This document shows, piece by piece, positions 6,038 through 18,452 of a DNA stretch of 26,761 nucleotides. The stretch spans positions 1 to 26,761 of IMG/VR virus record IMGVR_UViG_3300013014_000110; one strand, 5' to 3'. Made by a program: the position numbers and the translations under genes. This DNA is from a virus. The stretch's first letter is position 1; every line of letters starts with the position of its first letter. A model generated the notes under the pieces. The model was not told where the DNA came from and did not search any database. It worked only from the letters and a program-made list of their open reading frames with translations.

Positions 6038-6065
6038 ACTTATGTATATTAGTTAAAAAATATCG

Positions 6066-6098
6066 TAAAGATAAACAATAGTTTTTATATATTCCAAA
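6066..6098 (-). promoter_or_regulatory. Putative Bacteroidota-type promoter for the phosphoesterase-tail unit
   Basis: Read on the minus strand, TTTG (6098-6095) is followed after 21 nt by TATCTTTA (6073-6066), a 7/8 match to the Bacteroidota -7 element TAnnTTTG with its usual upstream TTTG. It lies about 28 bp before the phosphoesterase ATG and downstream of a strong terminator, where a new promoter is needed. Confidence 0.55.
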
Positions 6099-6122
6099 TA
6101 ATTTTAGTTATCCATGTAATTA

Positions 6123-6145
6123 TTTATAACTAAAATAGTTATAAA
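6123..6145. promoter_or_regulatory. 10-bp perfect inverted repeat, operator-like
   Basis: TTTATAACTA and its exact complement TAGTTATAAA are separated by AAA. The palindrome lies between the terminator (6143-6175) and the putative promoter (6066-6098). A partial repeat of one arm (TTTTAGTTAT) occurs at 6102-6111. It could be a repressor or activator site or a second hairpin; AT-rich sequence makes chance palindromes more likely. Confidence 0.35.
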
Positions 6146-6175
6146 ACAAAAACTTCCCAAGAAGATCTTGAGAAG
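6143..6175 (-). terminator. Strong intrinsic terminator ending the fibre block
   Basis: On the minus strand CTTCTCAAGA, loop TCT and TCTTGGGAAG form a 10-bp stem with one G-U pair, followed at once by TTTTTGTTTT. It lies about 40 bp after the stop of the 94-residue gene. A further inverted repeat (AACTTTGT/ACAAAGTT, 6177-6204) just before it may stop transcription from the opposite direction, since on the plus strand it is followed by six T. Confidence 0.75.
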
Positions 6176-6215
6176 AAACTTTGTAAAACCAACAAAACAA
6201 AGTTTTTTAAATTTG

Positions 6216-6500
6216 TTATCTAGGAATTGTTGTTGTAGTAGTAGTTGTACTTGTATATGATGTAGTAGTAGTAGTAGTTGGTTGAATTAATACTATATCA
6301 AAATAGTTAGTACATTCTCCAAGTGAGAGTAATCTAATAGTTGTTGTACCATCAGGTACTAAATCTGAAGAATAACCAATTATTAAATCTACTGTAGAAA
6401 CACTTGATTCAAATGCTGTTGTATACCCATCAATATTTGAATATAGATTAAATGGACCTACATTAGCTCCAGCTAACGTTAATGTTATGAATACTGTCAT
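6216..6500 (-). CDS. Short stand-alone adhesin-like module with Thr-rich tail
   Basis: A 94-residue protein made of one compact beta-rich domain (about 1-72) and a threonine-rich tail (75-91, ending TIPR). Domain landmarks are FNLYSNIDGYTTAFE, VPDGTTTIRL and GECTNYFDIVL. I recall this type of unit as a repeated domain inside larger phage or metagenomic surface proteins; here it stands alone. It lies 19 bp after the beta-propeller fibre gene and is the last gene before the terminator, so it is probably made with the fibres and may decorate them. There is no signal peptide or transmembrane segment. The function is unknown; a virion-surface role is inferred from context and the shared Thr tail. 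Confidence 0.65.
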   Translation of the reverse strand: MTVFITLTLAGANVGPFNLYSNIDGYTTAFESSVSTVDLIIGYSSDLVPDGTTTIRLLSLGECTNYFDIVLIQPTTTTTTSYTSTTTTTTTIPR

Positions 6501-6519
6501 TTTATTTTAATTTATTGGT

Positions 6520-7764
6520 TTAACCGAATTTATATATTTCTCCATTTCCAATATCATTAGCTTGGCTTGAATAAAATTCACCACCTGCTAATGCATGTAC
6601 TGTGCTCCATCTAACATTTTCATCACAACTTATTTTAACAAATGTATTTGTACCTGCATATATTATCCATATACCTCCAACATATCCTGGTGAAGGTTCA
6701 GCAGTACATATAATATCTCCATTAGGTGCTGCAGATATACTAGTCCAATATCCTGGTGATGTAGGTAATGAAACAAATGCTCCAACTCCTCCTGTTTGTT
6801 TCCACATAGTATATGGTGCACAAACATAAACATCTCCATTAGGAGCTACAGTAATATCTCTTGCTCCTGTACTAGGTGTTGATCCATAATATGTAAATCC
6901 AGTTGCAGACACTGCTCTTGTGCGAATAACACCTGCAGTGTTAATTGTCCATAATGTATCAGCTTGATCAAACGATAATCCTGTCCAAGAATCATTTCCA
7001 GCAAATGGAACAATAGGAGTAAAAGTAGATGCACTAATAGTTTTTACGTATAATGTACCACCATTAACTGCACCATAAACATTACCTAATGAATCTGCTG
7101 CCATTGCAGCATTAATAGCTCCTGAACTACCTACAGTAGACCAAGGACCACCTACAGGATATTTGTAAACAGTTCCACCAAGTGTACATGCATATATAGT
7201 TCCATCAGGAGTAGTAGTTATACCTTTCCAATAATTTGGATTTGTTGATACTATTTCTTTTGGACAATATGTAAATAAAACTGTAGTGGTTGTTGTAGTT
7301 GTACTACTAGTACTTGTAGTACTTGTTGATGTACTACTAGTAGATGTACTTGTTGATGTAGAAGTACTGGTAGAAGTGCTAGTTGAACTACTACTACTTG
7401 TAGTGGTGGTAGTTGGTACAGCAGTTGTACTTGTACTGGTTGTAGATGTACTAGTGGAAGTGGATGTAGAAGTAGATGAAGATGATGATGTTGTAGTGGT
7501 AGTAGGACAACATATATTAAGTTGGTTATTAATATTAATTATCTCTTCTGAAATAATCATCACGTCTTCAGTGATGTTTGTTATATCATATGTAAGTTCC
7601 TTAACATTATCTTTTACATCACATATAATACTTTCAAATTTACTAAGAATGTCATTTAATCCATCACATGTTTGTACACCTGCACAAGGAAGTGGAGCAC
7701 TATTGTATCCAATAGCACTCGTTCCTATTATTGTTGTATTATTTATTTGAGGACAATTAGCCAT
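6520..7764 (-). CDS. Fibre/adhesin: virion anchor, coiled coil, Thr/Ser stalk, six-bladed beta-propeller-like head
   Basis: The 414-residue protein has four parts. Residues 1-50 are an anchor with IGYNSAPLPC, then CDGLNDIL and IIC, shared with the neighbouring 492-residue protein. Residues 51-84 are a heptad-like coiled coil (Ile/Val/Asn pattern) ended by CC (85-86). Residues 88-161 are almost only Thr and Ser with one AVP break. Residues 165-414 hold six units of about 40 residues with the pattern W-x-x-I...P-D/N-G-x-I/V-Y (TPDGTIYACTLGG, DSLGNVYGAVNGG, APNGDVYVCAP, APNGDIIC), suggesting a six-bladed propeller. Such heads often bind glycans, so this is a candidate receptor-binding protein. 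The Thr/Ser stalk may be a rigid spacer or O-glycosylated. The ATG at 7764 follows 13 bp after the upstream gene. Confidence 0.75.
   Translation of the reverse strand: MANCPQINNTTIIGTSAIGYNSAPLPCAGVQTCDGLNDILSKFESIICDVKDNVKELTYDITNITEDVMIISEEIININNQLNICCPTTTTTSSSSSTSTSTSTSTSTTSTSTTAVPTTTTTSSSSSTSTSTSTSTSTSTSTSSTSTSTTSTSSTTTTTTTVLFTYCPKEIVSTNPNYWKGITTTPDGTIYACTLGGTVYKYPVGGPWSTVGSSGAINAAMAADSLGNVYGAVNGGTLYVKTISASTFTPIVPFAGNDSWTGLSFDQADTLWTINTAGVIRTRAVSATGFTYYGSTPSTGARDITVAPNGDVYVCAPYTMWKQTGGVGAFVSLPTSPGYWTSISAAPNGDIICTAEPSPGYVGGIWIIYAGTNTFVKISCDENVRWSTVHALAGGEFYSSQANDIGNGEIYKFG
7282..7503 (-). repeat. Low-complexity Thr/Ser-coding repeat tract
   Basis: About 220 bp of near-repetitive ACT/AGT/ACA/TCT codons encode the Thr/Ser stalk (residues 88-161) of the propeller fibre. 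Shorter similar tracts lie at about 6228-6278, 8324-8425, 8639-8692, 11162-11212 and 12330-12380. These offer homology for slippage or recombination between fibre genes. Confidence 0.8.
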
Positions 7765-7777
7765 TTTATTTTTTTAT

Positions 7778-9256
7778 TTATACAGTTGTGGTGGTGGTAG
7801 TTGTGGTACAAGGTGTAGAATCTTTAACATATGCATTATTAAGAACTAATGTTACTGCATTCATACATCCTGTTTCTTCTGTACCTCCTCCTATAACTGT
7901 TCCAGATATAGGAGTTCCATTACAATCAAATCCTTCCCATGATCCTGATGGAGCATTTCCTTGTATTAAATAGTTAATACAATCTACAACAGTTGTGGTT
8001 GTAGTGGTAGTTGTACAAGAAGGAAAGTCAACAATCACACTATTAATAATTTGAACTACAACCCATATACCATCATAATCAATTTGGTAATATCCATCAA
8101 GTCCTGCTAATGTACATCCAGTAGATCCTACATAAGCTACATCACCTAATTCTGGATATTCTTGATTCCAATATACTATAAAAGATGATGATGTTACACA
8201 AGTAGCATTTTGTAAACAAGCAGCAGCACCACATGCATCAACTAAGAAACTTCCTGAATCAGGAATAGTGTTTGTACCATTTACTACCAAACCAGTAAAT
8301 GGATGAGAAGTAGCAGGATTACATGTAGTTGATGTAGTAGTTGTAGATGTAGATGATGTTGATGTGCTAGTTGAACTAGAACTAGTAGTAGTTGTAGATG
8401 TAGAACTAGTTGTACTAGTTGTAGGTTCTTCAGGGCAACTTCCAAAAATACAATTTGCTCCAATTGTAATACTTACAAATGGATCACTAGCAAATCCTTG
8501 AGATCCACAAACTTTTATAACTTCATGAGAGAAAATTTCTACAGGACCACTAGGATTACCATTACAATCTACATAAGTTATAATATGATTTTCAATATCT
8601 ATATTATTAAATGTTAAACATTCACATGGATAATAAACTGTTGTTGTAGATGTTGTAGTTGAACTACTAGTAGATGTTGTTGTTGTTGTGCCACAAGGAC
8701 CAAATGGTGTTGCAATAACAGTACCTGGAACTGTAAGAGGACTATCTGTTATAACACAAATATTTGTATCTCCTGGTAATAATAGAATAGCAGATGGTAC
8801 ACCTGTAATACAATCAGTAATAGTTATAGCTACTGGATCTTCTCCTGTATTATCTAATGAGAAGCTTTCACAACGATTTCTTGTTGTAGAAGTTGTAGTT
8901 GTAATTACACAACATACATCTAATGTATTATTTATATTAGTTATTTGATTATTAATAATTAATAATTCTGCATTGATATTATTAACTTGAGTCTGTAATG
9001 TAGTTATTTGACCAAGTAATGTACAGATGATTTGATCTATCTTCTGTAATATAACATTAAGTGTATCACATGGTTCAGCTATAATACATGGTAATATAGG
9101 ACCATTATAAATAACATTACTAGAAAGGACAGTGTGTGTAGAACATGGATCATTACTTCCACAACTACTATTAGTAATTGTAGATGTACACCCACAAGGA
9201 CTGTTTAAAACTACATCTGTGCAGCAAGGATTTACTGATAAATAAGGATATGACAT
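7778..9256 (-). CDS. Multi-module fibre/adhesin with Cys-bounded domains joined by Thr/Ser linkers
   Basis: The 492-residue protein opens with a Cys-rich stretch (11-38) and the anchor NVIYNGPILPC, then CDTLNVILQKIDQIIC, which matches the 414-residue neighbour. A coiled coil follows (81-114, INN repeats) ending in CC (115-116). Four small domains come next, three of them flanked by cysteines: 129-188, 211-274, 312-414 and 426-483. Thr/Ser tracts separate them at 119-126, 190-206, 279-311 and 415-422, and the protein ends CTTTTTTTTV. Domains 1, 2 and 4 share a D-C-N/I-G/T centre (TDCITG, VDCNGN, FDCNGT) and a closing Cys before the Thr run, so they look like copies of one module. A surface-adhesin role is inferred. 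It lies 12 bp after the collar fibre gene. Confidence 0.7.
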   Translation of the reverse strand: MSYPYLSVNPCCTDVVLNSPCGCTSTITNSSCGSNDPCSTHTVLSSNVIYNGPILPCIIAEPCDTLNVILQKIDQIICTLLGQITTLQTQVNNINAELLIINNQITNINNTLDVCCVITTTTSTTRNRCESFSLDNTGEDPVAITITDCITGVPSAILLLPGDTNICVITDSPLTVPGTVIATPFGPCGTTTTTSTSSSTTTSTTTVYYPCECLTFNNIDIENHIITYVDCNGNPSGPVEIFSHEVIKVCGSQGFASDPFVSITIGANCIFGSCPEEPTTSTTSSTSTTTTSSSSTSTSTSSTSTTTTSTTCNPATSHPFTGLVVNGTNTIPDSGSFLVDACGAAACLQNATCVTSSSFIVYWNQEYPELGDVAYVGSTGCTLAGLDGYYQIDYDGIWVVVQIINSVIVDFPSCTTTTTTTTVVDCINYLIQGNAPSGSWEGFDCNGTPISGTVIGGGTEETGCMNAVTLVLNNAYVKDSTPCTTTTTTTTV

Positions 9257-9268
9257 GTTGTTAATTTA

Positions 9269-10381
9269 TTAAACTGGTCTATATTGAATGTAATAACAAG
9301 CTGTTACTGGTTGAATATTTGCATGAGGAAGTCCTCCACCTATATTTTCTTTATTAGTTATTGTCACTGTAATACCTGTAGTATTACTACCAATTGTTCC
9401 AGATATAGCTCGACCTGTTGATGCTGGTTCAATTGCTGTAGTTGGACGTGAAACTCCTGATGAACCAAAATTCATGTTTGTATCTGGTGTAAATGGATGA
9501 GTGTGTCCAAGATCTTCAAAATTTATTTCATTAGGGTGTGTATGTACAGGAATTTGTGTAGGTTGAAGTGTAATTTGATTTGCACCAGCAGTGTCATAAA
9601 GACTATAATTTGGATTAGCAGGACTAGCACCAGGATCAACTACAGCATTCATTGCTCCTCCAGGAACACCATTAATAGCTCCTACTAATCCATATCCTCT
9701 TAAATCAGGAGCTACGTTTCCATTACATAAAAATATTCTATCCCATTGACCTATACCAGCTCCTGTAGCATCAAAAAATCCTGTTATAGGTCCAAAATAT
9801 GGAAGTACAGAATAAGGAACCATTTTATTACTAATAAGACTATTTGTTGTACTATTTAAATAATCTTGAATTAAAATATTAAGATCTGCAATAGCTACAT
9901 ATGTATTAGGAAGATCAAATAGCAATTGTTCAAAATTAGAATTTAATTGACAAAGTTTAGTTATTACAGCTTGTACAATAGCATGTGTATCTGAAGAAGC
10001 TGTAACACCTGTTAAACATCCTATTGTGTAATCACCATTTAATATAGCAAGTTCTGCCACAATATCATCAACTTGTTCTTGAAGATCACAAGCAGCTTTT
10101 ATAATAGCTGTTAACATTTCATTCAATGTAAATCCTGTACATGTTGTACATGGAGGAAGATATTGTCTTACAGTTCTACAAATAATGTTGTCAGCTATAA
10201 TTGGTTTAACACCTACACCAGTTAGCACTGGAACAAGAAAATTTACAATTGAACTTTCTACAGAAGATAATGTATCCCCTGTAGTAATTCCTAAAGCAGG
10301 AACATCTATTCCTGTATATCTAACACATCTGTCAGAGATTATCTCTGTACATCCGTTAAAACAATTTGTGCAATTGGACAT
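9269..10381 (-). CDS. Tail fibre with tail-collar domain and His-rich tip
   Basis: The 370-residue protein begins with Cys-rich residues and an anchor RYTGIDVPALGITTGDTL that corresponds to the YNGP-LPC-CDTL motif of the two downstream fibre genes. Helical and coiled regions cover about 85-180. A phage tail-collar domain spans about 193-240 (VLPYFGPITGFF, then IFLCNGNVAPDLRGYGLVGA). The tip holds H280, H282 (PVHTHPN) and H293, H295 (GHTHPF), a HxH pattern known to bind metal in some T4-like fibre tips. The end, GGGLPHANIQPVTACYYIQY, is typical of collar/microcystin-dependent-type fibres. It is probably a trimeric receptor-binding fibre. The gene follows the LRR gene by 42 bp. Confidence 0.8.
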   Translation of the reverse strand: MSNCTNCFNGCTEIISDRCVRYTGIDVPALGITTGDTLSSVESSIVNFLVPVLTGVGVKPIIADNIICRTVRQYLPPCTTCTGFTLNEMLTAIIKAACDLQEQVDDIVAELAILNGDYTIGCLTGVTASSDTHAIVQAVITKLCQLNSNFEQLLFDLPNTYVAIADLNILIQDYLNSTTNSLISNKMVPYSVLPYFGPITGFFDATGAGIGQWDRIFLCNGNVAPDLRGYGLVGAINGVPGGAMNAVVDPGASPANPNYSLYDTAGANQITLQPTQIPVHTHPNEINFEDLGHTHPFTPDTNMNFGSSGVSRPTTAIEPASTGRAISGTIGSNTTGITVTITNKENIGGGLPHANIQPVTACYYIQYRPV

Positions 10382-10423
10382 AGTTTTTTATTTTAAAAGT
10401 TTATTAATATTTTGTTATTAGTA

Positions 10424-11548
10424 TTATCCGTTTGTAGACCAACCTTTAGAATATAATATAGTTGCTAAATTTGTACCTGCTATTGAATCTATATTATTTT
10501 GAAAATCTATATTACCTCTTCCTGTTATAGTAGTCATTGCATTAGCCCATGTTTCAGACTGTGTATAACCAGCTGTTGTCATTAGATTATTAACTAATGA
10601 TAAATAATCTAATAAATTTGGTAAAGGAATTAATGGATTAAAATTAACTATTTGATTATTAGATAATTCTAATTGTTTTAATTCACTTGATAAAGGAATT
10701 AATGGATTAAATGTAATAATTTTATTTCCTGATAAGTCTAAATATTCTAACAATGGTGGTAATGTAGATGGGTTAAAATTAACTATTTCATTATCTGATA
10801 AACTTATATATTCAAATGTTGCAGGCCAAATAACATCATTAACATCAGATATTAAATTATAACTTAAATCTGCACCAAATATATTTGTTACATTTCCAAA
10901 AGATTTAACAGCTGTTATTTCAAGTGCACTTAAATTAAATATACGAAATTTTGAAGAAACACCTAAAATTATAGCAGTTAAATTACATTGAAGTCTACCA
11001 TTTATTAAAGAAAAATCAGAAATATCAACATCTCTAAATCGGTTTAACTGATCATCTCCATCATATCCACTTTCTAAAAATGTTCTAAATGATGCTTCAT
11101 CTACTACTGGAGGAGTTGTAAGATTCCAATTTCCTGTTATATCAAAATTAAAAGAAGGTAGAGTAGTTGTAGATGTAGTAGTGGAACTAGAACTAGTTGT
11201 AGATGTAGTAGTTGGATTAGGAACTATTGTAACATTACATGGAACCTCTATACAAGGTGGTGGTGTATTACATCTACTAACACATCCCACTGTAAGACGT
11301 ATCACTCTACTAGCTATCATGTTTATTGTATATCTACTAGCGTAATTTGGGTTTATATATTTATATTGTAATATTCTTCTATAACCTATTAACTGAAGAA
11401 TGTCATCAGCAGGAACAGGTTTGTTCAACATATATGAAATATTGTTGTACAAATTATTACCAAGCTCTGCTAACTTGCAATCTATTTTTCTAAGTAAAGA
11501 AGGAATGTTAGCACATTCTGGGCAATTAGTTAATCTTGGTGATAACAT
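10424..11548 (-). CDS. Virion-associated leucine-rich-repeat protein with Thr/Ser linker
   Basis: A 374-residue protein. Residues 1-105 form an N-terminal domain with Cys pairs (C9, C12; C89, C93) and helical SLLRKIDCKLAELGNNLY, probably an anchor to the particle. Residues 113-129 are a Thr/Ser linker. Residues 130-210 are an LRR cap-like part. About five LRRs follow at 224-323 with a 22-23 residue period (LEYLDLSGNKIITFNP, LKQLELSNNQIVNFNP). A C-terminal cap follows (330-374, ending SKGWSTNG). LRRs usually bind proteins or glycans, so it could act as an adhesin. Adjacent repeats share a 21-base identical stretch, a sign of recent duplication. The ATG at 11548 lies 13 bp after the 31-residue gene. 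Confidence 0.75.
   Translation of the reverse strand: MLSPRLTNCPECANIPSLLRKIDCKLAELGNNLYNNISYMLNKPVPADDILQLIGYRRILQYKYINPNYASRYTINMIASRVIRLTVGCVSRCNTPPPCIEVPCNVTIVPNPTTTSTTSSSSTTTSTTTLPSFNFDITGNWNLTTPPVVDEASFRTFLESGYDGDDQLNRFRDVDISDFSLINGRLQCNLTAIILGVSSKFRIFNLSALEITAVKSFGNVTNIFGADLSYNLISDVNDVIWPATFEYISLSDNEIVNFNPSTLPPLLEYLDLSGNKIITFNPLIPLSSELKQLELSNNQIVNFNPLIPLPNLLDYLSLVNNLMTTAGYTQSETWANAMTTITGRGNIDFQNNIDSIAGTNLATILYSKGWSTNG
10622..10711 (-). repeat. Direct repeats within the LRR coding region (69-bp period)
   Basis: A 21-base stretch containing AAGGAATTAATGGATTAAA (plus-strand reading) occurs identically at 10622-10642 and 10691-10711, exactly 69 bp (23 codons) apart, one LRR unit. A further shared word, TTAAAATTAACTATTT, occurs at 10638-10653 and 10773-10788, 45 codons apart. 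This points to repeat expansion by duplication. Confidence 0.85.
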
Positions 11549-11659: not shown

Positions 11660-12223
11660 TTAATAAAAGTTTATTAAGTAGTTGTTACCTGAACAACCAC
11701 AGTTAGATCTTAAGAAACCATCTAACATATTATCTGCTTGAGCATATAATGTATTAGACTCATATTCTGCGCAGTTATTAGCTGCTGCAATAGCTCCTTG
11801 TATGAAGAAGTTTATTGTATTTAATTGTACACTAGATTGTGTTTTAAGTGCTCTGTCACACTCCATCATATTTAATTGTAAAAACGCATTGTCAAACTTC
11901 TCTTGAAGTCTATCAACACGTAATATTGTTTTCTCTACATAGTTCTGATATGCAGGAGCTACAGAATATTTTAATCTATACACTCCATCAGGAAGAGGTT
12001 GATTACAACCAGGTTCTGAAAGTCCTAAATTAGATGATGTAAATACATTTAATTGGTTAGGAATAAATGGTAAAAATTTGATTCCGAATCCTGGTATATC
12101 AATCTCAATAGTAGGTGCAGAGACCACTGGAGGATTGGTAGGATATACAGAAGCATCTGCAACACCAAGAGTATTAACATCGTAAGTAGGTACTACTAGT
12201 ATATCTAATTGTAAGTTTGCCAT
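11660..12223 (-). CDS. Conserved virion structural protein (187 residues)
   Basis: The N-terminal half is beta-rich (MANLQLDILVVPTYDVNTLG, then a Pro-rich part and IDIPGFGIKF). The middle has PLPDGVYRLKYSVAP. The C-terminal half is helical with conserved-looking features: a Lys/Arg/Asp-rich helix RVDRLQEKFDNAFLQLNMME, C122, then FFIQGAIAAANNCAEYESNT, and a final CGC. From memory, this domain plan (beta part followed by helices with FIQGAIAAAN) recurs in structural modules of Bacteroidota crAss-like phages, at the border between neck and fibre genes. It may link fibres to the particle. I cannot assign a specific virion location. An inverted repeat (12241-12280) sits just upstream of its start. 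Confidence 0.7.
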   Translation of the reverse strand: MANLQLDILVVPTYDVNTLGVADASVYPTNPPVVSAPTIEIDIPGFGIKFLPFIPNQLNVFTSSNLGLSEPGCNQPLPDGVYRLKYSVAPAYQNYVEKTILRVDRLQEKFDNAFLQLNMMECDRALKTQSSVQLNTINFFIQGAIAAANNCAEYESNTLYAQADNMLDGFLRSNCGCSGNNYLINFY

Positions 12224-12240
12224 GTTTGTTTTAAATAATT

Positions 12241-12280
12241 ATGCCAGAGGAATATGAGTTTATCCTCTTTCCCCTGGCAT
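12241..12280 (-). promoter_or_regulatory. Structured 5' leader of the 187-residue gene
   Basis: ATGCCAG (12241-12247) and CTGGCAT (12274-12280) form a perfect 7-bp stem. An inner helix AGAGGA/TCCTCT (12246-12251 with 12262-12267) competes for one or two base pairs. The 88-bp gap holds no open frame longer than six codons and no T-run after the stem on the minus strand. It looks more like a processing, stability or translation-control element than a terminator. Confidence 0.45.
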
Positions 12281-12311
12281 AGGTTATTATTAATTTCTAT
12301 TTCTTTTATTC

Positions 12312-14261: not shown

Positions 14262-14292
14262 AAAACTAGCCTCTTAAATAGAAGCTAGTTTT
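14262..14292 (-). terminator. Attenuator-like hairpin overlapping the stop of the 322-residue gene
   Basis: On the minus strand AAAACTAGCTTCT, loop ATTTA and AGAGGCTAGTTTT form a 13-bp stem with one G-U pair. The TAA stop of the upstream gene spans the loop. Only four T follow on the minus side, then AAAAATAT; on the plus side six T and then five T follow. No promoter was seen before the next gene, which starts 17 bp beyond, so partial termination with read-through is likely. Confidence 0.55.
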
Positions 14293-15242
14293 TTAGTTTT
14301 TAATTTACCTTCTAATGTCAATAACTCATCTTGGTTATCATCATCTGCAAGGAATTTAATTAAATCATCTTCATCTTTAGCTATTTCAAACTCACCTTCA
14401 TAAACCTTACCGTTAGGTTTGATTCTATAAACTGAATGTGCTACAGCTTGTTTTACTAAATCTTTAATATGGAGTAAAGCTTCTTTCATGTCAGCAAATC
14501 TATTGAACACTTCAACTGGATTCAATCCTGAATATTTACCATTCTTGAATTCTGTTTGTTTCAATACATTATCTACTAAGTTGTAAACTACTTCTTCTTT
14601 TGAATCTTCTGAAACTGGAAGTCCTAAAAGTCTTGCAACTTTACGTTTCTTCTCAGGAGTCATACTATCAAACTTAACAATTGCTTTATTGATCAATTGT
14701 TTTTTCTTGAAAATCACTGCACTCTCTATCTCATCATCAACAACATAAAATTGTGTTTCTGCTGGATATTCTCCTCTTTCCCAAGATTGGTAAGAAGATG
14801 CAATTGTTGGATGTACTCTCAACCATGAAAAGGCTATCTCTTGAAAAGGAACTGATAGATCAAAATAATTATCACCATCTAATAACTTTACTGCTTGCAC
14901 GTGTGTTTGGTCATCTGTTGAAGTTGATAATCCATAGTTCCAAAATTTAGAACGTGGTCCAAGATCAATATCACCAATCTCATCTTCAAGTCTTTTTTTA
15001 AGAGCTGTTACTCTTTCGATTTCTAATTCTTTCTCAAGTGGATCTTGAATACGTTTGATGTAAGTAGCATCTGGATCTAATCCTGTTCTATACTTACCAT
15101 CTAATTCTTTGTAAGGATATTTAAAAACTCCTGTACCAGGAATTCTTGTCATACCTTTTTGTGATAATCCACTATCCATTGTTTGAAGTTGTGAATTGTT
15201 GTACTCACGTTTTATCGTAGAGATTTTGCCTGTCTTACCCAT
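14274..15242 (-). CDS. Conserved protein encoded after the capsid gene, probable head or packaging-related
   Basis: A 322-residue, charged, mainly helical protein. N-terminal basic residues (MGKTGKISTIKREY) are followed by RIPGTGVFKYPYKELDGKYR, a helical ERVTALKKRLEDEIGDIDLG, and PRSKFWNY. The centre has PFQEIAFSWLRVHPTIASSY. The last 160 residues are Lys/Glu-rich helices with MTPEKKRKVARLLGLPVSED. It ends in an acidic patch (AKDEDDLIKFLADDDNQDEL) and a basic tail (KTKKLASI). It lacks a recognised enzyme motif. It is placed between the capsid gene and the ring-like genes, separated from the capsid stop by a structured 199-bp gap. A minor head or portal-vertex protein is plausible, but this is inferred from position only. 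Confidence 0.6.
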   Translation of the reverse strand: MGKTGKISTIKREYNNSQLQTMDSGLSQKGMTRIPGTGVFKYPYKELDGKYRTGLDPDATYIKRIQDPLEKELEIERVTALKKRLEDEIGDIDLGPRSKFWNYGLSTSTDDQTHVQAVKLLDGDNYFDLSVPFQEIAFSWLRVHPTIASSYQSWERGEYPAETQFYVVDDEIESAVIFKKKQLINKAIVKFDSMTPEKKRKVARLLGLPVSEDSKEEVVYNLVDNVLKQTEFKNGKYSGLNPVEVFNRFADMKEALLHIKDLVKQAVAHSVYRIKPNGKVYEGEFEIAKDEDDLIKFLADDDNQDELLTLEGKLKTKKLASI

Positions 15243-15279
15243 AATGTAGTTAATTTAATAAAGTTTGGTTTATTTTAGT

Positions 15280-15429
15280 AGAGTGTTCCAATTGAATGGA
15301 ATGCGACTGGTTTACACCAATCCATCACTCTGGGTTGAGAATCATCCCCTCTAGGAGGGAGAGGAGGTGAGGGGATTTTTCTCGGAAATAAGAGATGTAT
15401 TCTGTTCTATAATGGGAAGTAATACATCT
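15280..15429 (-). ncRNA. Multi-hairpin structured RNA downstream of the capsid gene
   Basis: Three structures stand side by side in the minus-strand transcript. First, AGATGTATT/AATACATCT (15393-15401 with 15421-15429), 9 bp. Second, an 8-bp stem ATCCCCTC/GAGGGGAT (15344-15351 with 15369-15376), extended by a 2x2 internal loop and 5 bp GAGAA/TTCTC (15337-15341 with 15379-15383). Third, a three-way junction: closing stem AGAGTG/CACTCT (15280-15285 with 15326-15331), a 7-bp arm with a GUAA tetraloop (15305-15322) and a 5-bp arm TTCCA/TGGAA (15286-15301). The region is visibly GC-richer than its surroundings and codes for nothing on the minus strand. No known riboswitch or ribozyme core was recognised. 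It could be a discrete RNA or a 3' stabiliser of capsid mRNA. Confidence 0.55.
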
Positions 15430-15441
15430 ACAATTTTATTA

Positions 15442-16995
15442 TTAGAATTGTGGGATTTCCTCGATCAACACAGTTCTTGATAAATCTTCGATGAATACAT
15501 CACATCTGTCTTTCATCCAGATTTCGTATCCTGGGAATTTGTTAGCTGAACTCATACCTTGAGACTTAGCAAAACCTAAGTGGTGACGAGTACCATCAAT
15601 ATAACCCCATGTCATAGAAGGAGCACCTTTCATACGCACTTCTCTAATGTTGTTTACCATTGAACCATCAGACATTGGAGAAACATCAAACACCATAAAT
15701 ACTGGAGTAGATTTTTTGTTTTGTCCAAACTCTAAGTTAGTTTGTGGTAAATCTAATTCTTTTAAGTGAATTAATTCAACTCTACCAGTCTCACGTGTAA
15801 CCATTGCATCAAATGCAAAGTTGTAAGTGATATGTTGTCCTTCACCTTGCATATATCTGTTTCCAGAATCAGCCATGAAAGTTAATCCAGAGTTTAATGC
15901 ATCTGTTTTTAAAGCTTGTTGGAATACATCGAATCCAGCTTCATTAGTATACATTTTAACACTTCTGTCTTTAACATCCACTCTTCTGTAGAACAAGTCT
16001 CCAAATACTGAACGGATTAAGTTAGCAGAGAATTCACCTCTGTTATATTGTACTAAGTTTCCATTGTTTCTCATTCTGTGGTAAACACCAGCAGATGTAC
16101 GTTTCAATTCTTGTTTAGAACCATTAGTTTTAACTGTACCAGGCTTAGCCCAGATCATACGTTTAACTTTTAATTCTAACATTGATTTACGCATCCAGAA
16201 TTCAATGAATGGCTCCCATTTAACATCATTACGAGTTAAAGGTAATTGGTTACGTCTTTGTGGAGCATATACTAAAATATCTAATGGTTTTCCAGAAGAA
16301 TCTCTCATCATTTTATCATCAGCCCACTCAGTGATTTTGTGCTCATATCCATATGCAGAACCTAAAGATTCAAACATTGTGATTTGCTCACCTAATCTTG
16401 GAAGACCTAATAAGTCTTGATCAAATTCACCAATAGCAGCATCAACTAATTCTAGTTCAATACCATACTGTAAGAATGTAGGATTAACAAAATCAATAGT
16501 TGGGTTATCAGTTACTAATGTAAATGAATACAAGTAACCCATATTCCAAGGCACAGGATCTTTTATTACATAAAATCTAGGACCATATTGACGAGTACCT
16601 ACAGAAATGATAGCATTTTTAGAGAACTCATTAGTATCTAATACTAAAGTGAATTCTTGACCATCGATACCTGGTTTAGATAGCTCTTGCGTAGAAGCAG
16701 GAATGTCAATAATTTTTGGGAATTTGTAAGGAACTGCTACTTGCCATTTCCATGCATCACTATTATTATCGATGTAATAAGGTGTGCTTTTGTTGATCAT
16801 GTCCAAAAAGTCATTACTGTATAATGAGCTTTGTGTGTACAAGCTGATGATTTTTTTATCATAGTCAGCAGGCTCAGTAGAGTGAAAACTCTCTAAGTGA
16901 TTAGAGTCTGTAAGTTTACCTACTGCACGCTTATCCATAGAAGCTACTCTAGCGTAAGTAAAACCTGTTAACCCAGGGATTGTTTGAATTGCCAT
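15442..16995 (-). CDS. Major capsid protein (crAss-like, HK97-fold family)
   Basis: The 517-residue product has the size and blocks expected of the crAss-like major capsid protein: an N-terminal arm (MAIQTIPGLTGFTYARVASM), a segment SLYTQSSLYSNDFLDMINKS, a beta-rich domain with WQVAVPYKFPKIIDIP, a central EPFIEFWMRKSMLELKVKRM helix, and a C-terminal domain with GAPSMTWGYIDGTRHHLGFA and YEIWMKDRCDVFIEDLSRTV. It lies directly after a scaffold-like gene and after TerL and portal, the standard order. The HK97 fold is known for this family, not visible directly. The ATG at 16995 has an A-rich leader without Shine-Dalgarno. A small stem (ACAATT/AATTGT) straddles its stop, followed by the structured RNA region. 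Confidence 0.88.
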   Translation of the reverse strand: MAIQTIPGLTGFTYARVASMDKRAVGKLTDSNHLESFHSTEPADYDKKIISLYTQSSLYSNDFLDMINKSTPYYIDNNSDAWKWQVAVPYKFPKIIDIPASTQELSKPGIDGQEFTLVLDTNEFSKNAIISVGTRQYGPRFYVIKDPVPWNMGYLYSFTLVTDNPTIDFVNPTFLQYGIELELVDAAIGEFDQDLLGLPRLGEQITMFESLGSAYGYEHKITEWADDKMMRDSSGKPLDILVYAPQRRNQLPLTRNDVKWEPFIEFWMRKSMLELKVKRMIWAKPGTVKTNGSKQELKRTSAGVYHRMRNNGNLVQYNRGEFSANLIRSVFGDLFYRRVDVKDRSVKMYTNEAGFDVFQQALKTDALNSGLTFMADSGNRYMQGEGQHITYNFAFDAMVTRETGRVELIHLKELDLPQTNLEFGQNKKSTPVFMVFDVSPMSDGSMVNNIREVRMKGAPSMTWGYIDGTRHHLGFAKSQGMSSANKFPGYEIWMKDRCDVFIEDLSRTVLIEEIPQF

Positions 16996-17031: not shown

Positions 17032-18309
17032 TTATAAGAACCATGATTTTGAATTAGCTCCTGAACCACCAGTAACACCTGAAGACTTAGCTTTGGTTAC
17101 TTGTCTTGCAACTTCTCCAAACAGTTCGTTAGATTTCTTCGTAACACCTGTTCTTTGTATAGTTGATAATGTAGGATCTTTTTCTAACATTTTAAGTAGA
17201 AGACCAATCTTCACTTTCTGTGCATGATTCTCTGGTCTTTTAAGATCCAAAATAGCACGATCAAAATCTGTTAGTGTTTCTCCTGTAGGAGTTTTCCACT
17301 TATCAACTAATAAGAAGTCTTGTAGTTCTGTTGCTAATTTTGGATTGATAGGAATACCATCAAACTCTTTTGCTTTCACCTTATCTTGTAAGATGGTTTG
17401 TACATTATTTATATACTGATTTTTAACAGCTTGTTTTTGTTGCAATTCTTGTTGAGAATTAGCTTCCATTTCTTGTAACTTAGCTGCTTCTTTTTTAACT
17501 AGCACTTTATGGTTTTTTGTTGCTACGCTTTCAAGATCACCATAATTTTTAAGTCTCTCAACTTCTGTTTCTATATCTTCTGGATCAAATCCTTGATTTG
17601 ACAAAGCTTGCTTCATTATCCTCACTTGATTACTTTCATCAGAAAGATCCATCTCAGCAAAGTTTACAACTTCATTATATGTACCAAAGTAATCTTTTGG
17701 ATTAACTCCTTTTACAAATATGGCATCAAAAGCTTCCTGGTAATCTTCTCCAAATTGTCCTATGAAGTTTTGTACTATTTCACTAGCACCTTTTTTCTTC
17801 TCTTCATTAAATCTTTCTAAGAATTCTTCTGCAGTATTTACTGGTTCTTGATCTTCATCATCAGATGTAAAAACTCCTAGTTTATAAAGATCATTTGCAA
17901 GAGCAGTGAATTGTGTTCCTTGTGGAGCATCTTCATCATTATCATCTGCATCATCATTATCAACACTTGCAGATTTTGCAGGTTTTGATACTGGAGGAAC
18001 ATCATCTTCCTCATCTTCATCTTCACTATCACTTAAGAAGTCAGAGATCATTGATTGTCCATCTAATTTCTCTTCATCTGTTTTTCCATCAACGCTTTTA
18101 GGAGGAACAATATCCTTACCTTTTTTTACTTCTGGTGCTTCTGGAGCAGCAGGTGCGTTAGCTTCTTTTATAATTGCAGTGACATCTTCTGGATTAGAAG
18201 TAGATGTTTCAGGGGAGAATAAATCATTTAATAATTCTTGATTACCCATTCCCATGTCCATAGTATCTTGGATACTAAAATTACCCATAGTTTCTAAATT
18301 ATCAGCCAT
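17032..18309 (-). CDS. Acidic scaffold-like head assembly protein (candidate)
   Basis: The 425-residue product sits between portal and capsid genes, where tailed phages place scaffold or scaffold-protease genes. Residues 1-150 are low-complexity and strongly acidic, with Met- and Pro-rich parts and runs such as SDSEDEDEEDDVPP and DNDDADDNDEDAPQ. Residues 150-330 are helical with a Gln/Glu/Lys coiled-coil stretch (EEAAKLQ-like region followed by SQQELQQKQAVKNQ). The C-terminal 90 residues are basic and helical, ending TKAKSSGVTGG and SWFL. No serine-protease motif was seen, so self-cleavage is not indicated. The composition matches scaffolds functionally, but not by a recognised family. A putative promoter lies just upstream. 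Confidence 0.65.
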   Translation of the reverse strand: MADNLETMGNFSIQDTMDMGMGNQELLNDLFSPETSTSNPEDVTAIIKEANAPAAPEAPEVKKGKDIVPPKSVDGKTDEEKLDGQSMISDFLSDSEDEDEEDDVPPVSKPAKSASVDNDDADDNDEDAPQGTQFTALANDLYKLGVFTSDDEDQEPVNTAEEFLERFNEEKKKGASEIVQNFIGQFGEDYQEAFDAIFVKGVNPKDYFGTYNEVVNFAEMDLSDESNQVRIMKQALSNQGFDPEDIETEVERLKNYGDLESVATKNHKVLVKKEAAKLQEMEANSQQELQQKQAVKNQYINNVQTILQDKVKAKEFDGIPINPKLATELQDFLLVDKWKTPTGETLTDFDRAILDLKRPENHAQKVKIGLLLKMLEKDPTLSTIQRTGVTKKSNELFGEVARQVTKAKSSGVTGGSGANSKSWFL

Positions 18310-18341
18310 ATGTAGTTGTATTTATGTTTGGTTTTATTATG

Positions 18342-18372
18342 TAAAAGTATAATAAGACTTTATAATATCAAA
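18342..18372 (-). promoter_or_regulatory. Putative promoter before scaffold and capsid genes
   Basis: On the minus strand TTTG (18372-18369), a 19-nt spacer and TACTTTTA (18349-18342) match TTTG-N19-TAnnTTTG at 7 of 8 bases in the downstream box. It is about 32 bp before the scaffold ATG, in the only long gap (143 bp) between portal and scaffold genes. An internal promoter here would raise scaffold and capsid output above portal and TerL. Confidence 0.5.
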
Positions 18373-18452
18373 GTGTTATTGGTCTATATGATCCAATTTT
18401 TAAGATAATATAGCATTAATATATTTTTTCTTCTTCTAAGAAAAGAAGTTTT

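Follow-up and report, generated by a model that had tools for sequence, protein, structure and literature searches.

The DNA stretch analyzed here (the window) is the virus record IMGVR_UViG_3300013014_000110 over 26,761 nucleotides (26.8 kb), in which the virion genes are located on the minus strand. Along this strand, a 425-aa gene (17032-18309) is followed by the major capsid protein gene (15442-16995, 517 aa; Pfam PF23898 Crass_capsid, 8.4e-27; PHROG 11589, major head protein), a gap of 199 nt (15243-15441) and a 322-aa gene with no assigned function (14274-15242; PHROG 16383). No DNA homologue of the window was obtained among named phages using blastn, while protein search revealed Leptolyngbya phage Lbo-JY46 as the sole named-phage relative, with 25% identity. 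The GC content at 15280-15429 is 0.43 versus 0.32 for the whole window, and the minus strand of the gap contains no ORF of at least 50 aa, as a sequence-only reading of the window had described when it called this region GC-richer than its surroundings and non-coding on the transcribed strand.

The gap RNA was folded on the minus strand with a minimum free energy (MFE) of −50.5 kcal/mol (z = −5.5; 0 of 200 shuffles were as good), while the opposite plus strand reached z = −2.8 only. The MFE fold consists of a hairpin D1, a hairpin D2 and a three-way junction D3 separated by linkers of 9 and 5 nt, and these are the three folds that the sequence-only reading had placed there. D1 (15393-15429, minus strand, as for all features of the gap) is a 9-bp hairpin with the core CUUCCCAUUAUAGAACAG. 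In the hairpin D2 (15337-15383), helices of 5 and 8 bp (13 bp in all) flank a 2x2 internal loop, and a pyrimidine-rich loop of 17 nt caps the stem. D3 (15280-15331) is a tRNA-like junction with a GUAA loop, which scores 66 bits in the window with the covariance model R1 described below. Its acceptor-like stem P1 is formed by the 5' strand AGAGUG (15326-15331) and the 3' strand CACUCU (15280-15285), of which AGA and UCU are invariant. The arm P2 (15301-15325) starts with 3 bp, followed by a bulged G (15304), 7 more bp and the GUAA loop; it is variable and stands where a tRNA has its D and anticodon arms, while P3 (15287-15300) is a T-arm-like hairpin with the conserved loop UUCAAU at 15291-15296. 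Between D3 and the 322-aa gene (15243-15279) lie an R-C-W-A tail (ACUA) and the A-rich 5' leader of that gene, AAACCAA...ACUACAU. No Rfam family, including ribozymes and pRNA, matched the gap at the gathering threshold and only chance-level matches appeared at E ≤ 10, in agreement with the earlier remark that the fold does not resemble known ribozymes.

Other sites of the window were also recorded. The D2 loop contains CACCUCCU, which resembles the anti-Shine-Dalgarno end of 16S rRNA; it is restricted to the lineage of the window and was judged a chance occurrence in a pyrimidine-rich loop. The gap at 12224-12311 (minus strand, z ~ −7), before the gene at 11660-12223, forms a long hairpin of high stability, AUGCCAGGGGAAAGAGGAU...AUUCCUCUGGCAU, and the gap at 6038-6215 (minus strand, z −3.9) carries hairpins and a terminator-like CUUCUCAAGAUCUUCUUGGGAAG with a run of U behind it. 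Several virion-region genes at 6216-11548 (minus strand) have long Thr/Ser repeats (TTTTTSS...), which are possibly fibre linkers or sugar-modified stretches.

Conservation and covariation of D3

Capsid-based searches returned at least 599 matching stretches, from which 214 capsid-downstream gaps of crAss-like phages including that of the window were collected, 142 of them distinct. The homologous gaps range from about 110 to 800 nt, with ten distinct gaps longer than 450 nt. D3 was found in 142/142 distinct gaps, 138 by a pattern finder, which succeeded in 0.5% of trials on shuffled gaps, and the remaining four (L100, L139, L161 and L186) by R1. This model was built without P1, since the 3' arm of P1 was misplaced by MAFFT, and P1 was counted separately using sequence-anchored arms. 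R1 detected one strong D3 copy in the window and one in each of 13 related records (90-118 kb); the model was trained partly on these D3s, and the informative point is that no second strong copy appeared elsewhere in the related genomes of ~110 kb. R1 found no D3 in Lbo-JY46, and the gaps of Lbo-JY46 are without it.

To score the covariation, 44 diverse D3 sequences were aligned with MAFFT (alignment A1) and evaluated against a 22-pair structure. Paired cells amounted to 87.7% compared with 67.3% after shuffling, and 192 double-change cells were counted versus 53 ± 7.5 in shuffled alignments (0/500), with double changes at 19 of the 22 pairs. When the pairing partners were slid, the double-change cells fell to 34-66. 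The inner pairs of P1 vary among homologues (GUG:CAC, UGG:CCA, AUG:CAU and others), while AGA:UCU is constant among the anchored D3s, for which the anchor itself demands AGA and UCU (136/138 have both). The absence of compensatory changes from homologous gaps had been set beforehand as the outcome speaking against selection on the fold; such changes were found and, together with z = −5.5, they agree with the earlier claim that folding is under selection. That the gap encodes a real structured RNA is near certain.

The three domains are not conserved to the same extent, and the proposal of a three-domain unit holds for D2 and D3 only. A long D2-like hairpin lies upstream of D3 in nearly all relatives, mostly at a distance of 3-13 nt and farther where extra hairpins are inserted. 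Its conservation was determined from per-sequence folds rather than by alignment, in which D2 covariation is weak because the helices shift register. D1 is lineage-specific: most lineages have other hairpins in its place, and its CUUCCCAU..AGAACAG core occurs in 17 of the 142 distinct gaps. D1 and the additional hairpins are modular. D1 hairpins with differing stems (window 15393-15429; L152, L180 and others) have a common CUUCCCRU..A(G)AACAG core, which looks in sequence as if it were recognised by a protein. The GUAA (GNRA) tetraloop, which the sequence-only reading had emphasized, is present in the window and was rejected as the key feature, as it is not conserved among homologues and the conserved loop is UUCAAU in P3.

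Resemblance of D3 to tRNA and tRNA genes in the same slot

The likeness of D3 to tRNA is well supported. Judged from sequence and predicted structure, D3 would behave as the upper half of a tRNA does, yet it is not a tRNA. A P1 stem of 6-8 bp (6 bp plus C.A in the window) abuts a P3 arm of 4-5 bp with a T-loop-like UUYRAU loop, and the R-C-W-A tail follows. The UUCRNU hexaloop occurs in nearly all of the 138 elements (UUCGAU 67, UUCAAU 29, UUCGGU 26 and others, in a search that favoured UUC), and UUUGAU or UUUAAU is found in more distant relatives. No linker separates P3 from the 3' strand of P1 in 78/138. The P3 loop and the end of P1 are 12 nt apart in 71 and 11-13 nt apart in 117 of 118 distinct D3s, and the T stem and acceptor stem of tRNA likewise add up to 12. 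The D3 family thus has the arrangement typical of tRNA, a 7-bp acceptor stem and a 5-bp T stem stacked without linker, and D3 presents the T-arm/acceptor-like stack of ~12 bp found in RNase P substrates.

Other properties differ from those of tRNA. The P3 loop has 6 nt versus the 7-nt UUCRANY T-loop of tRNA, and it often carries G at the fifth position (UUCGGU). The third arm begins with 3 bp and a bulged G, continues with 7-8 bp and ends in a variable loop; comparison of sequence and structure among homologues revealed no D arm and no 7-nt anticodon loop. The tRNA model RF00005 did not match in the window, nor over the gap at E ≤ 10, and ARAGORN detected no tRNA in the window. Bacterial RNase P favours an RCCA 3' tail and a G1. 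R-C follows P1 in ~121/124 D3s, with RCWA in 98/124 and RCCA in 2/124, so the 3' RCCA of RNase P substrates is not a property of D3, and P1 is also without G1.

In some relatives, real tRNA genes occupy the same place. A tRNA-Met(CAU) gene with a C-W-A 3' end was detected by ARAGORN between D3 and the leader in 14 loci, and its distance to the AAACCA leader is 5-6 nt, the same as for D3 elsewhere. The tRNA-Met(CAU) genes of L010, L040, L056 and L070 carry a C1.A72 mismatch, which is a hallmark of bacterial initiator tRNA. In the distant relative L248 (capsid 85% identical), D3 is absent and its place, flanked by a D2-like hairpin and the leader, is taken by a tRNA-Thr(UGU) (Rfam 54.5 bits, E 2.7e-11), while L236 has the D2-like hairpin only, without D3. 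Between D3 and the 322-aa gene, L010 (5885-6331), L106 (4668-5072) and L187 (4746-5063) carry small inserted ORFs in which cysteines and histidines follow an HNH-like pattern, CxxC...H...CxxCH; from this pattern they are probably homing endonucleases, and Pfam gave a single helix-turn-helix match to them and nothing else. The capsid gene of crAssphage cr50_1 (L252 11392-13700) is annotated as two pieces flanking an HNH endonuclease, which suggests an intron or insertion within the capsid gene.

Since D3 is retained beside real tRNAs, it may serve for more than cleavage. A mimic of shape alone could do without the invariant AGA:UCU, which hints at sequence-specific recognition. Both the retention and the invariant pairs favour an added trans-acting or protein-binding role.

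The shared leader and a candidate processing module

The leader AAACCAA...ACUACAU is common to the 322-aa gene, where it lies behind D3, and the 425-aa gene, where it follows a promoter TTTG-N19-TACTTTTA (18310-18380, minus strand) that served as comparison site. Upstream of the leader of the 425-aa gene, TTTG-N19-TAnnTTT[AG] is present in 108/111 distinct sequences and fits the Bacteroidetes promoter consensus TTTG/TANNTTTG (PMC6847099); this promoter type suggests that the host of the window phage belongs to Bacteroidota. The −7 box of the 425-aa gene is separated from AAACCA by 6-9 nt, and P1 of D3 is separated from AAACCA by the same 6-9 nt in 100/124. No Bacteroidetes-type promoter box precedes the leader behind D3 (0/139). 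Intrinsic terminators were absent from the gaps (0/131), including the minus strand of the window gap, and no U tract follows the hairpins. With the leader spacing matched and neither box nor terminator present, cleavage at the 3' edge of D3 would, on the simplest reading, yield nearly the 5' end that initiation makes at the 425-aa gene.

In other crAss-related phages, cr10_1 and Cellulophaga phi4:1, this gap holds a terminator-like hairpin with a U tract, and terminator-like hairpins with U tracts were read by eye in the gaps of the Lbo-JY46 group (L229, L230 and L233). This fits a slot that serves to end the capsid message. In the cultured Cellulophaga phage phi4:1 (L254 16842-16994), the gap comprises an intrinsic terminator and then a hairpin abutting an AAACCAA leader, with a UCGAA tail.

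We propose, with a probability of about one half and on the basis of sequence comparison, that D3 is a tRNA-like processing element which separates the capsid and downstream mRNAs in the manner of punctuation. The gap would be a processing and punctuation module within a co-transcribed capsid operon, and D3 a minimal tRNA mimic with an acceptor-like stem on a T-arm-like arm and one variable arm. Host tRNA-maturation nucleases would cut at the edges of D3, with RNase P acting on its 5' side and RNase Z, or a 3' enzyme like it, on its 3' side. The upstream cut would leave a capsid mRNA ending behind D2, which may shield it from 3' exonucleases, while the downstream cut would produce a 322-aa mRNA with nearly the same A-rich leader as initiation gives the 425-aa gene. 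RNase P measures the T-arm/acceptor stack (PMC4919913) and processes the phage M3 and C4 RNAs (PMC11143913), so that the model needs no new enzyme. Points against it are the RCWA tail, the 6-nt P3 loop, the lack of G1 in P1, the retention of D3 next to real tRNAs, the invariant AGA:UCU and the absence of D3 from L236. The sequence-only reading had linked the structure to the 3' end of the capsid mRNA and to the ratio to downstream genes; a role at this 3' end and in separating it from the downstream genes is probable, while the tRNA-likeness of D3, the tRNA in the slot and the shared leader had been missed.

Among the alternatives, D1 to D3 could form a passive structured 3' UTR that blocks 3' exonucleases and stabilises the capsid mRNA without specific cleavage, the downstream gene being read from the same message or from another promoter type. 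We consider this unlikely: the modular extra hairpins accumulating in the gap and the stability of D2 everywhere are in its favour, whereas it does not account for a loop resembling a T-loop, for the 12-nt geometry, for the tRNA that stands in for D3 in L248 or for the constant distance to a leader which, at the other gene, begins at a transcription start. Rather unlikely is also that D3, alone or with D2, is an abundant free phage RNA riding on the capsid transcript and acting in trans, for example as a decoy that draws off proteins binding tRNA or host defences directed against tRNA. A specific partner is suggested by the invariant AGA:UCU and UUCR positions, and D3 is kept beside real tRNAs with one copy per genome; however, D3 has no anticodon-like loop, the shared mRNA leader begins directly behind it, and it is replaceable by tRNA-Thr in L248. 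It is improbable that D3 belongs to the 5' UTR of the 322-aa mRNA, serving 5'-end protection or translation control, and is transcribed from an unrecognised promoter; although D3 and the leader are tightly spaced and a hairpin adjoins the leader in Cellulophaga phi4:1 too, D2-D3 linkers of mostly 3-13 nt leave no space for a promoter outside D2, and the Bacteroidetes −7 box is found before the leader in 0/139. That the gap is an ordinary intrinsic terminator or a chance fold is very improbable, since, even though other members of the order carry an intrinsic terminator here, no U tract and 0/131 terminator-like sites were seen, while the covariation, which already excludes chance folding, z = −5.5 and D3-like matches in only 0.5% of shuffled gaps speak against chance.

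Returning to D3 as a processing element, we tentatively suggest, at somewhat below even odds, that a minimal tRNA mimic, which either descends from a real tRNA gene or can be swapped with one, took the place of the capsid terminator. Host tRNA enzymes would then split the virion operon, and the new 5' end would copy the promoter-made leader. If the processing model is true, the tRNA maturation of the host determines in these phages in what ratio the virion mRNAs are present and how long they last, and the occupants of the slot (terminator, hairpin, real tRNA and tRNA mimic) would record how a tRNA-like structure can arise.

Comparison with known systems

D3 represents a covariation-supported RNA family that is absent from Rfam and present in 142/142 distinct gaps of a large and widespread, uncultured crAss-like group, and a search of open-licence papers returned no report of this gap RNA. 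Compared with tRNA (RF00005), D3 has in common the acceptor-like stem, the abutting T-arm-like arm, the T-loop-like loop and R-C after the stem, and a real tRNA substitutes for it in L248, but D3 is without D arm and anticodon loop, has a 6-nt loop and does not match the tRNA model. The phi29 pRNA is, like D3, a tailed-phage RNA with a three-way junction; D3 differs from it in having no Rfam match, in being far smaller and in its conserved loop, whose common form UUCAAU is not self-complementary. The plant-virus 3' tRNA-like structures, known RNase P substrates (PMC11143913), also place a non-tRNA sequence in a tRNA-like shape, while D3 is internal in a DNA phage operon, with no pseudoknot seen and no RCCA end. 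Phage RNAs cut from longer transcripts by tRNA enzymes, as proposed for D3, include the phi80-type M3 RNA and the P1/P7 C4 antisense RNA (PMC11143913), which differ from D3 in sequence and genes and are small or antisense RNAs. In mitochondrial tRNA punctuation, a tRNA or tRNA-like fold is likewise located between genes and cuts at its edges give both mRNA ends, while in the phage capsid operon the fold is a non-tRNA mimic and the cleavage is predicted.
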